From Verrucomicrobiota bacterium (GTDB taxonomy: Bacteria > Verrucomicrobiota > Verrucomicrobiia > Chthoniobacterales > UBA10450), in the NCBI GenBank assembly GCA_003218975.1, contig QHPD01000100.1, positions 1 through 64,000 of the forward strand: a DNA stretch of 64,000 nucleotides, given 5' to 3'. Made by a program: the position numbers and the translations under genes. Below, piece after piece: positions 9,760 through 64,000 of the stretch. The first letter of the stretch is position 1. Each line of letters starts with the position of its first letter. The notes beneath the pieces are model-generated. The model saw nothing but the letters and a program-made list of their open reading frames with translations. It did not search any database and was not told where the DNA came from.

Positions 9760-9816
9760 AGGAGCGGCGGTCTCTAGTCCGCCGACAAAAGAGGAGCCCT
9801 GGAGACCGCCCTCCTT
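9760..9816. repeat. Left REP element flanking the RAYT gene
   Basis: Bases 9760-9785 are repeated inverted at 10545-10570 with one mismatch in 26. Inside the element aggag-ggcggtctc pairs with gagaccgcc-ctcct (9802-9815), giving an imperfect hairpin. It lies between the serine hydrolase start and the transposase gene. Confidence 0.85.
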
Positions 9817-9875
9817 GAGAGACAACTCGAAGTTTCTCGAGTCTCTTAAGCCGCGTCTGATACGCTTACCCTGCC

Positions 9876-10510
9876 GTGGCCGCACTGTGGTTTTTCAATC
9901 CGTACGGGGAGATTCGTTTCACTGCGAACCGCTTGCCACATTGGCAACAAAAAGGCGCGGTTTATTTCGTTACGTTTCGACTTGCCGACGCTCTGCCTCA
10001 CCACCTGCGCACGCAATGGGAGTCCGAGCGTGACGCATGGTTGCGCGTTCATCGTCAACCGTGGAGCGCCGACGTCGAGCGCGAATATCACGAACGGTTC
10101 TCAGGCGCGATGGAACACTGGCTCGACACTGGCCATGGCTCCTGCATTCTGAGGCGCCGTGATTGCGCAGAAATCGTGGCTCAAGCGCTTCGCTACTTCG
10201 ACGGGAAACGGGTAGTCATCATTTCGTCTATAGTGATGCCAAATCACGTGCATGCAGTTGTCGTGCAAAATGCCGACTGGGCTTTGGAAAAGCTGCTGCG
10301 CAGTTGGAAAAGCTTACTTCGCGGAAAATAAACTCGCTGCTGGACCGCGACGGGAGTCTGTGGCAACGGGATTATTTCGATCGGTTGGTTCGGGATGAAA
10401 AGCATCTTGCAAACTGTGTGCGCTACATCCGAAGGAATCCTGAAAGGGCACGCCTGCGTAGCGGAGAATATATTTTGTATGAGAGTGAACTTGCACGGCG
10501 CATCGAATAA
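9876..10510 (+). pseudogene. REP-associated tyrosine transposase (RAYT), frameshifted
   Basis: Frame one (GTG at 9876 to TAA at 10329) carries GAVYFVTFRLADALP and the HUH nuclease motif VMPNHVHAVV. After AGC at 10311-10313 the homology continues one base back, in a second frame to 10510, with LWQRDYFDRLVRDEKHL and the Tyr-bearing CVRYIRRNPERARLR. Together they make about 210 residues, the normal length of IS200-like Y1 transposases of the RAYT class, which process REP hairpins. The break fits a one-base deletion near 10314. Inverted REP copies flank the gene on both sides. Confidence 0.85.
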
Positions 10511-10517
10511 ACATGAT

Positions 10518-10570
10518 AGGCGGTTTTCTAATCCGCCCCTTGGTTCGGCGGACTGGAGACCGCCGCTCCT
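10518..10570. repeat. Right REP element flanking the RAYT gene
   Basis: Bases 10545-10570 match the left REP in inverse orientation (25 of 26). A second short hairpin (ggcgg ttttctaat ccgcc) precedes it. Together with the left copy it brackets the RAYT gene as a REP-RAYT-iREP unit. The sufU stop lies 12 bases beyond. Confidence 0.85.
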
Positions 10571-10581
10571 TGCGGCGCGAT

Positions 10582-11046
10582 TTACGCCGGTTCGGTGGAA
10601 ACAATGGCCTCGCCTACCCCCTGCTCCAGGGCCTGCTCCACTGCACGCCAGGCAAGCATGGCGCACTTGACTCGCAGCGGAAAATTGCGCACGCCTCTCA
10701 TCACACGGAGATCGCCGAGTTTTTTCGGCGCTTCGTTCGTCTCATTCGTCACCAAGTCGTGGAATGCATGGAGCATTTCCAGCACTTCCTCGCGACTCTT
10801 GCCCTTCAATTTCATCGTCATCAACGACGCGGACGCCTGGCTGATCGCGCAACCGCGCCCGGTGAATTTGATGTCTTGCAAGCCTCCGCTGGTGTCGAAT
10901 TTTACGGCGAGATTAATTTCATCGCCGCAGGCTGGATTATCCCCATGCACCAGAACGGCAGCGTCTGGCAGCTCGCCGAAATTCCGCGGCCGGCGCGAAT
11001 GATCGAGGATCACTTCCTGATAAAGCTCTTCGATTTCCGGGATCAT
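10582..11046 (-). CDS. sufU: SufU-type Fe-S cluster assembly protein
   Basis: The 154-aa protein shows the NifU-N/SufU layout: N-terminal LYQEVILDHSRRPRNFG, then the three conserved cysteines in NPACGDE, GRGCAISQAS and RVKCAMLAW. In Gram-positive-like SUF systems SufU accepts sulfur from SufS with help of a zinc ion. The start overlaps the sufS stop (ATGA at 11043-11046), so the desulfurase and acceptor are made together. SufBCD are not in the window. Confidence 0.93.
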   Translation of the reverse strand: MIPEIEELYQEVILDHSRRPRNFGELPDAAVLVHGDNPACGDEINLAVKFDTSGGLQDIKFTGRGCAISQASASLMTMKLKGKSREEVLEMLHAFHDLVTNETNEAPKKLGDLRVMRGVRNFPLRVKCAMLAWRAVEQALEQGVGEAIVSTEPA

Positions 11047-13633: not shown

Positions 13634-13696
13634 CTGTAGTGGCAGGCGTGTCGCCCGCAGTGTTTAATTGCGCCGCGGACACCGCTGCCGCTACAG
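13634..13696. repeat. Palindromic repeat, ctgtag family (copy B)
   Basis: Arms ctgtagtggcaggcgtgtcgc and gcggacaccgctgccgctacag pair imperfectly across a 63-base element between kbl and the DUF3303 gene. The right tip, read on the minus strand as ctgtag, is the last Leu codon and stop of kbl. Confidence 0.8.
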
Positions 13697-17595: not shown

Positions 17596-19108
17596 CTCCG
17601 CTCAGGAGACAGATTGCGTGCGAGATCAATATCGAATCGCGCGCCAGGTTTGCGAGCTTACTTGTAATACGGCCGTAACGACGGCCGCAGCTTTCCGATT
17701 TTAAGGGCCGTTTCGATTTGCGTATCCGAGACGGAGTCCTCAGAAAGTCCGCCAGTCGGACGGACTCGTCCCGTGGCGAGTTTGCGAGTCTCGCCTGCCT
17801 CGAGCGCAGCGATCGGCAATCCATCGCGAAACAAAATCCGGTTTGATGTGACCGCAGCAATGCGCGGCCCCGGCGTGAGAATGCCTTGCAAATTCAGTGG
17901 ATCCGCCGCGCTGAGTGTAATCAGTTCGTTCTTTGGCGACGCTTTACGAATGGACCGCAACAAGCCGATGGCCTCGGGCAACGCGAATTGTTCGCCGCTA
18001 ATTCCTCCTACGAAATAACCGCCGCGAATTTCACCGCGGGCTTCCCAGCGCCGGTAAATGCGGCCCAACTCATACCACGTCACGCCAAAAATCTCGCGCT
18101 CGAGCAAACGGCGAAAAACAACGCCATAGCGGCGCAGCAATACCCGCGCAAATTTTTCGATGGCCGGGTCGCGCGCGGAACTTTCCACGCCATTTCCCAA
18201 TGGTTGCGACGTGATCTGCGTTCCGAGCAAAGACCAGCGTCCGGCAAACTCGATGCTAGCGAGACTCGTTTTGCGCCGACGTCTTCCAATGTTCCGGCCA
18301 AACGTGGGCCGTTTGTTTGAGGGAACGAGAAGCGCTCGCAATCCGTCGAAACTGTCCGACGTGACAAAACCGCGCGCGGCGAGCTGAGACAATGCGTCTT
18401 CGACTTGCGACGGCAGCAGACCAGTTCGACGCACGAGTTCGCTGAAGAAAAGGGCGCCACCGGTTGCCAGCTCCTCGAACACCCTTCGCGGCACAACGGA
18501 AAGTTCCACGCTTGAATCTGCTTGAGTCAGATGCAGCCAGTCGTGGAGATTTTCCCGTTGATAAAGCGCGATTGGGCTCGTCCGCAATGGCGCGAATGCA
18601 CGCGCGTTTGGATTTTGTAGTGAGCTCAAACGTCCCCAACCAACACGACCCGAAAAACAAAGACGATCCAGCCATTCCGGATCGTAATCGTTAACACGCG
18701 CGGCGAGGACTGCTGATTCCCAAGCGGTTAGCGGCAGCTCGCATCCGTCAAGTTGCTCGAGAACCGACTGCAAGCCTTCCGGACCTTCCACGCGATGTTC
18801 CAAATCGGCACGCTGCCACGCAAAAAGAAATCGGTAGAAATCCTGCAGTGAAACCGGCTGAATCTCAGCACGCAGGCGGTCGATGGTGAGTCGATGAATT
18901 CGCGCCAACAATCGGCGGTCGCACCATTCCTGCTCGGTTGCGCTCGGGCGAAATTTGCCACGCAAAATAAAACCTTCCGCTTCGAGCGCCAGGAGTGCCG
19001 CGTCAATTTCCGAACGCGATAATCAGGCTCAACGATCGCGTTGGGGTAAATCGCTTGAATCATTGGAAGCCGTTCCGCAGCGATACAGAACGCCCTAGTC
19101 GCGCTAGT

Positions 19109-19198
19109 GTTTTGGAGTGCGCTCCCGACCCATCGGGAGCGCTTTTCGGATTTGCCATCACCGCTCGAAAGCGGCAGAGCGCTGCCGCACTTCAAAAC
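19109..19198. repeat. 90-bp palindromic element in frame inside lhr
   Basis: Outer arms gttttggagtgcg and cgcacttcaaaac match 12 of 13; inner hairpins are ctcccgacccatcgggag and a gcggcagagcgctgccgc. The length is exactly 30 codons, so the lhr frame is kept through it (about residues 960-989). The inserted peptide is not expected in Lhr proteins. Confidence 0.8.
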
Positions 19199-20253
19199 CT
19201 CTCGGTCCTTCGAGTGTTGCGCGGCAAAAACCACACGCGTCGCTCGATTTTCAGCTACGAGCGTTGAGACAAACTGTTCGACGTCTTTGCCATTCGATGT
19301 CCGCTGCACTTCCTCTGGGCTCATCACACCTACCAGCATCAGCGCGTCGTGCAATTCGTCCGCGTTCGCCGCCTCTGGCCAGGCTTCGCGCTGCACTTTC
19401 TCGATTGCCGCTGAATCGAGAATTCCCAAGCCGTCGCTCCCGCTGCGTTCCGAAGCGCGCCTAGTGTAAACCGCTTGCGTGCGGCGTTCCTCCAATGGCG
19501 CATTGTCGAGAAATGCGTAAGGGCGCGCGTTGAGAATTTCCGCAGCAAGCGGCGACGGCTCGGGCAAGTCGCGGGCGATGCACCGAATCTGGCCGTTCTC
19601 GATTTTCCGCAACACTTCTTCTAATCCATCAATGTCCATCGCTTCGGTCAGGCAATCGTGGATCGTTTGTTCCACCAGCGGATGATCCGGAATCTCGCGG
19701 TCACCGACGATGTGTTCGAGACACGCAAGCTGCTCAGGGAAAACCGCAGCCAGAAGATTTTCCGATTCCATGCGTTGGAGCGGCGCGGCGATTTTTGAGC
19801 CGCCACGAAAACGAGGGACTGCGAGTGAACGGGCCGCGTTCCAGCGCCAGCGAATCGTGAACATCGGCGCATCGAGCAAGGCTTGGACGAGCAGGTCGCG
19901 AACCGTTTTAGAATTCAGATAACGAAAAACTTCTTCGAGTGGAAAGGAGTGCTGCGTGCCGAGGGAAATCACGATGGCATCGTCGGTCGCCGCGGCTTGC
20001 AGCTCAAAATTGAAAGAGCGACAAAAACGTTTGCGCAGCGCCAAGCCCCAGGCGCGGTTGATTCGATTGCCGAAAGGCGAGTGAAGCACAAGCTGCATTC
20101 CACCTGATTCATCGAAGAAACGCTCCATCACTAGAGTTTGCTGCGAAGGAATTGTCCCGAGCGATCGATAAGTGTCTGCGAAATACTCACCGACCTGTTC
20201 AGCAGCGTCAGCCGACAACTGCATTTTCTTTGCGAGCCACTCCGCAACGGCAT

Positions 20254-20307
20254 TGGTAGGGACGGGGCGCTGCGCCGCCTGGACATCGCAGCGCGATGTC
20301 CCTACCA
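20254..20307. repeat. 54-bp palindromic element in frame inside lhr
   Basis: Perfect outer arms tggtagggac and gtccctacca enclose a perfect hairpin ggacatcgc-agc-gcgatgtcc and a shorter one around ggcgctgcgcc. It is 18 codons long (about residues 590-607) and adds a peptide reading [17 protein letters not shown] to a helical stretch of Lhr. The outer arms recall the ggtagg intergenic family. Confidence 0.8.
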
Positions 20308-22150
20308 GCTCTTCGATTTGAATGCGCAAATCGGACACAGCTCGCGATAACTCCGATGTGCGCGCAGGCGCTTCACCCAGCCAGAATGGAATTCCGGGCG
20401 GCTGGCCTTTGGCATCCTCCACGCGGACGACACCGGAATTGATGCGTAAGATTCGCCACGATGCGTTGCCGAGCTGAAAAATGTCGCCCGCCAAGCTTTC
20501 GACTGCGAAGTCCTCGTTCACTGTGCCGACGAAAGTTTCCGATGGCTCGAGGACCACCCGGTAATCGGCATTGTCGGGAATCGCGCCACCCGAAGTCAAC
20601 GCAACCAGCCGCGAGCCGCGTCGGCCGCGCAAACGATGATTTACCGCGTCGTGATGAATTAACGCCGCGCGTCGACCGCGCTTCGTGCTGAAACCTTCGG
20701 CGAGCATTTTCACTACGGCGTCGTAGTCTTCGCGTGCGAGATTTCGATACGGCCATGTTGAACGGACAAGCTCAAAGAACTCATTTTCGTCCCAATCCTC
20801 GGTGGACGCGGCTGCGACGATTTGTTGAGCCAACACATCCAGCGCGTTTTCTGGAATGATGAGGCGATCAAGCTCGCCGCGACGGACGCAATGCAATAAC
20901 GCTGCGCATTCGACGAGTTCGTCGCGGCTCAATGGAAAGATCCGGCCCTTCGGCAAGCCTCCACGTTTGTGTTCTGCGCGACCGACACGTTGCAGCAAAG
21001 TGGCGATGGAGCGCGTGGAACCGAGCTGGCAGACGAGCTCGACCGAACCAATATCGATGCCCAACTCCAGGGAAGCCGTGGCAACAAGCGCCTTCAATTC
21101 CCCGCGCTTCAATCGATCTTCCGCATCGAGACGCAGCTTTGCCGAAAGACTTCCATGGTGCGACGTCACTGCGTCCGCCCCAAGCAGTTCGCTGAGATGA
21201 TGTGTCACGCGCTCGGCCATGCGGCGCGTATTCACGAACACTAATGTGGTCCAGTGCGCCTGAATCAACTCTGCGAGACGATGATAGATTTCCTCCCAGA
21301 CTTCATTCGACATTACCGCTTCAAGCGGCGACTTGGGAATTTCGATCGTCAGATCCATTTCGCGACGGTGACCGATGTCGATGATCACGAAGTCTGGATT
21401 GCCAGTGTTGTCCACCGCGCAAGCGCCAACGAGAAAACGTGCAACCTCTTCGATCGGTCTTTGCGTTGCCGACAAACCGATCCGCTGAAGTGACTGCGTT
21501 GTCAGCGCAGCTAAGCGTTCGACGCTCAAGGCAAGGTGCGCCCCACGCCGGTCATCCACGACAGCGTGAATCTCATCCAGAATAAGCGTTCGCACCGTGC
21601 GCAGCATCCGCCGGCCGGATTCGGAAGTGAGCAGCAGATACAGAGACTCGGGCGTGGTAACGAGAATGTGCGGCGGCTTCTTAACGAGCGCCTGCCGTTG
21701 CGCTGCACTAGTATCGCCCGTGCGAACTTCAGCACGCACCTCAATCTCACGCCGTTCGGTCTCGCGCAACAACGCGCGAATCCCCGCCAGCGGCTCCTGC
21801 AGATTTTTGCGAATATCGTTGCTCAACGCCTTGAGCGGCGAGACGTAAACAACGTGCGTTTCATCCGGCAAATCACCCTGCGCCCCTTCGCGAAACAACA
21901 CATCGAGCGAAGCGAGGAACGCCGCTAGCGTCTTGCCTGAACCTGTTGGCGCAGAAATCAGCACGTGCCGGCCGGATTGAATTGCCGGCCAGCCGCGCAC
22001 TTGCGGCTCGGTCGGCGAGCCAAACGTGCGCTCGAACCAACGCGCGATCGCAGGATGAAATCGAAAGGACTGCATGAATGTGAAAGACGGAACGTTAAAT
22101 TTAAGCTGCGACGCGACAAAGAAAAGCAGAGGCGCAACTTGTGATCCCGA

Positions 22151-47751: not shown

Positions 47752-47855
47752 TTTCTGTCATGTCGAGCGAAGTCTCCTGCTTTTGCGGGATTGCTGATAT
47801 CTGAAATGTTCAGAGATTTCTCGACTTCGCCTGCGGCTTCGCTCGAAATGATAGA
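47752..47855. repeat. Long inverted repeat ('gtcgagcgaag' type)
   Basis: tctgtcatgtcgagcgaagtc near 47754 is mirrored by gcttcgctcgaaatgataga near 47846. It is a widespread intergenic palindrome type and occupies most of the gene-free 47576-47864 stretch together with AT-rich words. Confidence 0.6.
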
Positions 47856-62877: not shown

Positions 62878-63753
62878 ATGAATTCAGACACACCAGCAAT
62901 TGGAATTATCGGCGGTAGTGGTCTCTACCAAATGGAGGAATTACGCGACGCGGCTGAACACAAGGTCGGGACGCCATTCGGAGCACCATCGGATAAACTT
63001 GTCGGCGGCAAGGTGAGCGGGCGTCAGGTTTATTTTTTGCCGCGACACGGCCGTGGCCATCGAATTCTGCCGCATGAAATAAATCACCGTGCCAATATTT
63101 ACGCGCTTCGCTCGCTTAATGTCCGCTGGATCATCTCAGTGGCGGCAGTGGGCAGCTTGCAGGAAAAATATGCGCCGCGAGACGTGGTATTGCCCTCGCA
63201 GTTCTATGATCGTACCAGCCAGCGCGCGGCCCATACATTTTTTGGCGAGGGCATTGCCGCGCATATCGCCTTCGCTGAGCCGATCAGCACGAAACTGCGT
63301 AATCTTCTCGCGGAATCAGCGAGATCTCTGGGCATTACGGTACACAATGGCGGCACCTACGTGAACATGGACGGTCCTGCGTTTTCCACGCGCGCCGAAT
63401 CGGAACTGAATCGTCGGAACGGCTTCGACGTGATCGCGATGACCAATCTTCCGGAGGCGAAACTGGCGCGCGAGGCGGAGATTGCGTTCGCGACGATGGC
63501 GATGATCACTGATTACGATTGTTGGAAGGTGGAGGAGGAACCTGTCTCGGCACAGATCGTCCTCAGTCATTTAATGGCAAATGCGGAGACGGCGAAGAAA
63601 GTGATTGTGGACGTGATCCCGCGAATACCGACGGAGCCGAACTGGCCGGAACACTTCGCGTTGGACACAGCTCTGGTCACTGACCGGAAGTTTTGGCCGG
63701 AAGCTACGGTAGAAAAGCTGAAACCGATCTTGGGACGGTTTCTGGCTGAATGA
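62878..63753 (+). CDS. mtnP: S-methyl-5'-thioadenosine phosphorylase
   Basis: The protein starts AIGIIGGSGLYQMEELRD and shows the phosphorylase family motifs FLPRHGRGHRILPHEINHRANIYALRSLNVRWIISVAAVGSLQ, HNGGTYVNMDGPAFSTRAESEL, and DVIAMTNLPEAKLAREAEIAFATMAMITDYDCW. It splits methylthioadenosine with phosphate to adenine and methylthioribose 1-phosphate in methionine salvage. 291 aa is normal. Confidence 0.95.
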   Translation: MNSDTPAIGIIGGSGLYQMEELRDAAEHKVGTPFGAPSDKLVGGKVSGRQVYFLPRHGRGHRILPHEINHRANIYALRSLNVRWIISVAAVGSLQEKYAPRDVVLPSQFYDRTSQRAAHTFFGEGIAAHIAFAEPISTKLRNLLAESARSLGITVHNGGTYVNMDGPAFSTRAESELNRRNGFDVIAMTNLPEAKLAREAEIAFATMAMITDYDCWKVEEEPVSAQIVLSHLMANAETAKKVIVDVIPRIPTEPNWPEHFALDTALVTDRKFWPEATVEKLKPILGRFLAE

Positions 63754-63837
63754 CAAATGACGAAGGAACCATGAAATCCGAATGACAAAAAGATGCGCGG
63801 GGAGACCTTCGTCATTCAGGCATTCGGATTTGTTTCG
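63754..63837. repeat. Dispersed 'aatgacgaa/atccgaatgac' repeat
   Basis: The words atgacaaatgacgaagg, aaatccgaatgacaaa, cattcggatttg and cgtcattc form an inverted pattern between mtnP and bioF. It is the usual intergenic word-repeat type; no gene. Confidence 0.5.
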
Positions 63838-64000
63838 TCATTCGTGCTTCGTCATTTTCCTAATCGCATCGCAGAGCGCTCGGATTCGATCTTCATCGTG
63901 CGACGCAGTTACCGTAATGCGCAATCGCGCGGAGCCTTTCGCAACCGTTGGATAACGAATTGCTGGAACGAGGAATCCTTCACTTTGGAGCGCAGACGCC
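63838..64000 (-). CDS. bioF: C-terminal end of 8-amino-7-oxononanoate synthase (truncated by window)
   Basis: Read on the minus strand the last 54 codons give SEGFLVPAIRYPTVAKGSAR then LRITVTASHDEDRIRALCDA and a stop, the characteristic C-terminus of BioF/KAPA synthase. The RYPTVAKGSARLRIT motif binds the PLP/acyl substrate side. The rest of the gene lies beyond the window. Confidence 0.87.
   Translation of the reverse strand, partial: ASALQSEGFLVPAIRYPTVAKGSARLRITVTASHDEDRIRALCDAIRKMTKHE

Follow-up and report, generated by a model that had tools for sequence, protein, structure and literature searches.

The element at positions 9760–10570 of the window (here the whole 64,000-nucleotide stretch of DNA that was analysed) is a REPtron, in which a Y1-type HUH transposase of the RAYT family lies between inverted REPs. 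Taken as a whole, the evidence makes it very probable that this REPtron is broken and that transposases of its family can also live another way, embedded in frame in host enzymes. The window element alone is a broken member of the known REPtron kind, and inverted REPs on either side of a RAYT are well documented (PMC2817692); the new part is its embedded relatives, which occupy three host genes in the same genome. The window is a contig (C104) of a 3.06-Mb, 97%-complete, Candidatus Udaeobacter-like metagenome-assembled genome (MAG) of the Verrucomicrobiota, with relatives in records named as Verrucomicrobia 'AV' soil MAGs, Chthoniobacterales and Candidatus Udaeobacter.

The 26-bp outer arms of the element (9760–9785 against the reverse complement of 10545–10570) were identical at 25 of 26 positions, which bore out the earlier note on this DNA, whereas the best inverted 26-mer match in 12 shuffles of the flanks reached only 15–17; extended to 35 nt, the arms were 86% complementary. 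These arms are the outer halves of REP doublets with hairpins of the form GGCGG-n8-CCGCC. The left doublet (9760–9816) consists of the REP at 9760–9785, which is the inverted copy of 10545–10570, and a facing REP at about 9799–9816, with hairpins at 9766–9784 facing 9799–9810, while the right doublet (10519–10570) joins a hairpin at 10519–10537, facing that at 10546–10565, to the REP at 10545–10570. Compared with shuffled sequences, the left doublet folded far better (z −3.9) and the right one less so (z −1.6). The foot of these REPs reads CAAG or CGAG followed by GAG and not GTAG, a point on which the earlier wording of a GTAG/GGAG-type motif needs care. Since the GTAG/GTGG foot, which is typical of REPtrons but not universal (class 3 has CnGA), was absent, we lowered the claim that this is a typical GTAG REPtron, and its membership is based on the transposase family together with the inverted, multicopy REPs.

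The RAYT gene lies on the plus strand. Its N-terminal part (9876–10313) begins at the first GTG at 9876 in a frame that closes at 10331, and carries the HUH motif MPNHVH at 10236–10253; its C-terminal part (10314–10510) continues in a shifted frame to the stop at 10508–10510 and carries the catalytic-type tyrosine at 10424–10426, in RYIRRNP, in the column aligned to Y132 of ISDra2. Both the HUH motif and the Y---NP tyrosine of class 2 TnpA-Y1 proteins are thus present, and about 100 aa, including a WLDxGxGxC motif, lie N-terminal to the HUH core. Read through the break, the protein scored 80 bits on the NCBIfam model REP_Tyr_transpos (cut-off 80) and 38 bits on Pfam Y1_Tnp (cut-off 23), in agreement with the Y1-type HUH transposase and REPtron arrangement first noticed. 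An IS200/IS605 identity was rejected based on a score of 25 bits on the IS200 model (cut-off 55), the flanking REPs and the single copy of this type in the genome. The same genome also holds two very similar IS200-like transposase genes encoding about 150 aa (L001 and L002), and further imperfect inverted repeats of 19 and 45 nt were seen in the window at 47754–47855 and 63749–63856.

Comparison with two uninterrupted copies from sister genomes (L018 and L019; 80–81% nucleotide identity) revealed one base missing at position 10314 on the plus strand, and this was the only gap in the alignment, confirming the single break that had been placed near 10314. This one-base deletion would disable the gene, and the earlier suggestion that the transposase may now be inactive is supported as probable. 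Against L018, dN/dS was about 0.10 for the half before the break and about 0.07 for the half after it. Neither half therefore shows relaxed selection, indicating that the break is either recent or an assembly error.

The close relatives of the window RAYT (67–81% identity) form one clade with support of 99/98. In six of them (G052, G082, G067, G024, G027 and G022) the RAYT adjoins apparently the same beta-lactamase-family gene (PF00144; 8572–9741, minus strand, in the window), a neighbour that was recognised in the last three by reading the flanking sequence rather than by search, and in most of the six CAAGGAG-(C/G)GGCGG REPs stand on both sides of the RAYT. We surveyed the gap between the M3-peptidase and beta-lactamase-family genes in 25 genus members and found a RAYT on one strand in G052 and G082 and on the other in G067 and the window genome, and none in the remaining 21, among which G071 has a REP pair alone. 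The far side of the gap is rearranged in the window genome, where a SufU/NifU-like gene (10582–11046, minus strand) takes the place of the M3-peptidase gene found there in three sister genomes with the RAYT. The same gene neighbour thus recurs across genera, but presence is patchy and both orientations occur. This pattern, read from sequences that are mostly MAGs, indicates that the RAYT element was gained at (or lost from) a REP-prone gap, and that it either turned round between its inverted REPs or inserted on more than one occasion. The same gap (L179–L201) carries different REP families in different genomes and is a REP hotspot. Intact paralogues, which the earlier note had proposed to look for, were found: uninterrupted orthologues occur in sister genomes, and the window genome has uninterrupted paralogues in its own CarB, RecG and MetH.

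A census of REPs showed that the REPtron's own type (CAAGGAGCGGCGG type) has 3 matches in the genome, all at the REPtron locus as far as the window search shows, in which the two exact outer REPs were recovered. Six genomes with an uninterrupted or gap-interrupted close RAYT contained 35, 53, 26, 126, 70 and 135 copies of the same type, compared with a family median of 5 elsewhere (Mann-Whitney p = 8e−5; within the genus, p = 0.003). Two genomes were rich in these REPs without a detected close full-length RAYT, G020 (69 copies) and G021 (140 copies), and the latter retains a RAYT remnant matching residues 4–55. The census, as a comparison of sequences, speaks for lost activity of the window transposase. 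The abundant REP of the window genome is instead a GTAG-tagged type with 41 copies, one of which lies at 13636–13658 in a pair (13636–13694) that is unrelated to the REPtron and not derived from it; the in-frame palindrome at 20254–20307, a REP pair inside a 1115-aa Lhr-like helicase ORF (18728–22075, minus strand), is also of the GTAG type.

These data bear on three other readings of the locus. The suggestion of the earlier note that the REPtron may have been the source of local REPs failed, and we regard it as very improbable, also when it is taken to cover the in-frame palindromes of the window: only proximity favours it, while both the local and the genome-wide REPs are GTAG-tagged with other stems and the three matches to the REPtron type are all its own, so that the REPtron was not the source of the local REPs. 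REPs unrelated to the REPtron pair were also the result named beforehand as speaking against the original interpretation, and the 41-copy type is of this kind. A programmed frameshift at 10314, as in some insertion sequences, would fit a lone break in an otherwise conserved gene, but five relatives (L018, L019, L021, L023 and L024) read through the same stretch without a shift and no canonical in-frame slippery heptamer was seen when the sequence was read by eye; with a probability close to nil, this candidate was rejected. More weight belongs to a sequencing or assembly error in an actually intact gene, which we consider unlikely. The lesion is single, the record is a MAG contig and both halves are as constrained as those of uninterrupted relatives; on the other hand, no long homopolymer lies at 10314, and the REP type is down to 3 matches, as expected without an active transposase. 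The two clocks do not fully agree, with RAYT halves that are still constrained and yet REPs of its type that are nearly absent, and a real deletion in the window RAYT is the reading that we retain as probable.

The paralogue closest to the window RAYT in its own genome is uninterrupted and embedded in frame in CarB (C161, ORF of 1362 aa); the two share 46% identity over the whole protein. Another RAYT lies in frame inside RecG (C63, ORF of 907 aa), and MetH (C150:1-5500, L226) carries two RAYTs of a second clade, both in frame within a single open frame; with domain boundaries set by reading, the first precedes the pterin-binding part and the other the activation domain. Phylum-wide, such RAYTs were found in frame in about a dozen host proteins. 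In nine of these, Pfam identified host domains around the insert: CarB, RecG, the exonuclease VII large subunit, a DinG-like helicase, an Eco57I-type methylase, MqnA, a CCA-adding-type nucleotidyltransferase, PriA and a B12/radical-SAM protein. The insert itself was named Y1_Tnp by Pfam (at E 1e−5) in 6 of the 9 host ORFs and was recognised by the A1 profile in the others. Further hosts were assigned by sequence motif only, namely DUF1156 and C-terminal fusions to Dtd- and FolP-like proteins. In a draw of 289 genomes across the phylum, 51 of the 150 matches listed lay in open frames of at least 400 aa, and relatives of these RAYTs also occur in Chloroflexota, Bacteroidota and Pseudomonadota. 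Searches of an open-access library turned up no account of a whole RAYT within an essential enzyme; subscription journals lay outside this search, which is not proof of absence.

In CarB, every insert falls within the oligomerisation domain, with '...KIDRWFLRN--QIV' before it and 'RAKKLGFSD' after it, and the stretch between these motifs exists as empty alleles of 13–16 aa, short or REP-only alleles of 22–46 aa and REP-RAYT-REP alleles of about 250–310 aa. In G016 and G062 the same site is occupied by a RAYT of a different clade, and G070 has lost almost all of the RAYT in frame, retaining flanks common to G076. A tree of 64 CarB hosts required at least 12 changes of state, and for the main class the starred branches alone force at least 8. 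Between two CarB genes with the insert (L045 and L103), four-fold sites differed at 17 of 94 positions in the element but at 203 of 413 in the CarB flanks (p = 2e−8), where the 94 sites cover the left REP linker and the RAYT and leave out the right linker, which was not low; this low divergence indicates that the two copies of the element separated later than their host genes. RAYTs cluster by host gene in their own tree, but the MqnA copies branch from within the CarB clade, as though the transposase had moved between CarB and MqnA. The same linker holds unrelated inserts of 38–46 aa in other genomes (L164, L165, L071 and L073), and the site is generally permissive. In one genome (L168, G061:C250), a CarB with RAYT is split within the insert into two overlapping frames of 642 and about 714–729 aa, which may show a CarB on its way to being split or may be an error of assembly.

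The HUH and tyrosine residues were kept in all 56 embedded RAYTs examined, including 3 that the tyrosine search pattern had missed and in which YL--NP was seen in the printed sequences. A tyrosine or phenylalanine near WQ-x-x-Y, which as the catalytic residue would have made the embedded copies dead, was rejected because the ISDra2 alignment places the tyrosine in YI--NP, conserved in all copies. For pairs of CarB-embedded RAYTs with dS below 1.2, dS being saturated for many others, dN/dS was 0.09–0.32, values that indicate purifying selection on these RAYTs; CarB itself gave 0.03–0.04. A predicted model of a CarB fragment with its insert contained a confident RAYT domain (pLDDT mostly 82–96) between disordered, REP-encoded linkers; the best solved match of the insert was E. 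coli TnpA-REP (4er8), and the flanks matched E. coli carbamoyl phosphate synthetase. An in-frame ATG that could serve as an internal start was present in 30 of the 56 copies, with a Shine-Dalgarno-like site in only 1. Judging from these residues and substitution patterns, the embedded RAYTs are apparently functional.

Two alternatives to functional, in-frame transposase domains were weighed. Over-long TnpA-Y1 proteins have previously been set aside as fusions or annotation errors (Quentin et al. 2018, PMC6006769), and most embedded cases come from MAGs, so the inserts could be assembly chimaeras or annotation artefacts. However, the same junctions recur in dozens of independent genomes from several collections, including records not labelled as MAGs (Pontiellaceae B12227, L145; Chloroflexales ZM16-3, L117), the frames are uninterrupted and the empty, REP-only and deletion alleles are nested, all of which make an artefact extremely improbable. 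We also consider it unlikely, though deserving more attention than an artefact, that the embedded RAYTs are passive passengers without activity, whose frame alone is maintained by the host enzyme. Their dN/dS exceeds that of CarB and one copy was removed in frame in G070, as passengers might be, but the ratios are well below 1, the HUH motif and tyrosine are invariant, spread between CarB genes was limited to the RAYT and the MqnA copies derive from the CarB clade. An embedded and apparently functional transposase thus remains the preferred reading.

Studied RAYTs bind single-stranded REP hairpins and cut near their foot with the conserved tyrosine (PMC8266576), and RAYTs have been described as single-copy, vertically inherited, domesticated transposases (PMC8049555). 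We propose that the REPtron inserted into the REP-prone gap beside the beta-lactamase-family gene in an ancestor of the genus, where its RAYT, by analogy with TnpA-REP enzymes, would have cleaved REP hairpins in single-stranded DNA and spread copies of REPs through the genome. It may have stayed active until a recent one-base deletion disabled the window copy; its REP type is numerous in sisters with an uninterrupted copy and gone from the window genome except at the element. In the second way of life, the REP-flanked RAYT sits in frame in a linker or loop of CarB, RecG, MetH, XseA and other enzymes and would be translated as a domain of them, in which form the embedded copies may cut REP hairpins and move. 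Because a frameshift or stop in an embedded RAYT would kill the host enzyme, we favour the idea that embedding would shield the transposase from lesions of the window type. For the persistence of RAYTs despite their usual single copy, the broken free-standing copy with its REPs gone, set against the uninterrupted embedded copies, suggests that embedding protects the transposase. If this is true, many Verrucomicrobiota of soil and fresh water would have a DNA-cutting domain in enzymes such as CarB, RecG and MetH.

Compared with described REPtrons and RAYTs (TnpA-REP; PMC2817692, PMC6006769), the window element is alike in its single small gene, its Y1 HUH domain with Y---NP, its inverted REPs and their arrangement in doublets, but differs in its CAAG/CGAG foot, its broken gene, its N-terminal stretch with WLDxGxGxC and its close relatives inside enzymes. 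TIRtrons and their TIRYTs (PMC3733652) likewise have a RAYT-like gene between inverted repeats; those repeats are unrelated long TIRs, whereas in the window element they are REP hairpins, of a type present in many copies in sister genomes. REPs translated inside ORFs are already known, from the verrucomicrobium Opitutus terrae and from repair genes among others (PMC3733652), and the embedded RAYTs resemble such in-frame REPs and the Rickettsia palindromic elements in that palindromic repeats are translated inside working proteins, often DNA-repair enzymes; those repeats encode about 20–80 aa, whereas the REP-encoded linkers here enclose an entire catalytic transposase of about 200 aa. With homing-endonuclease inteins they share a DNA-cutting selfish domain placed in frame in essential proteins at recurrent sites. 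Unlike inteins, the RAYT insert occupies a variable linker rather than a conserved active site, and no intein or Hint domain was among the Pfam matches in the nine host ORFs; no protein splicing would be expected. We tentatively suggest, as a possibility that falls short of an even chance, an intein-like life without splicing, in which a REP-RAYT-REP unit would enter linkers of essential enzymes in frame, repeatedly the same CarB linker, persist as a catalytically competent domain that is frameshift-proof unless the host enzyme is killed, and spread to matching sites in other genomes.
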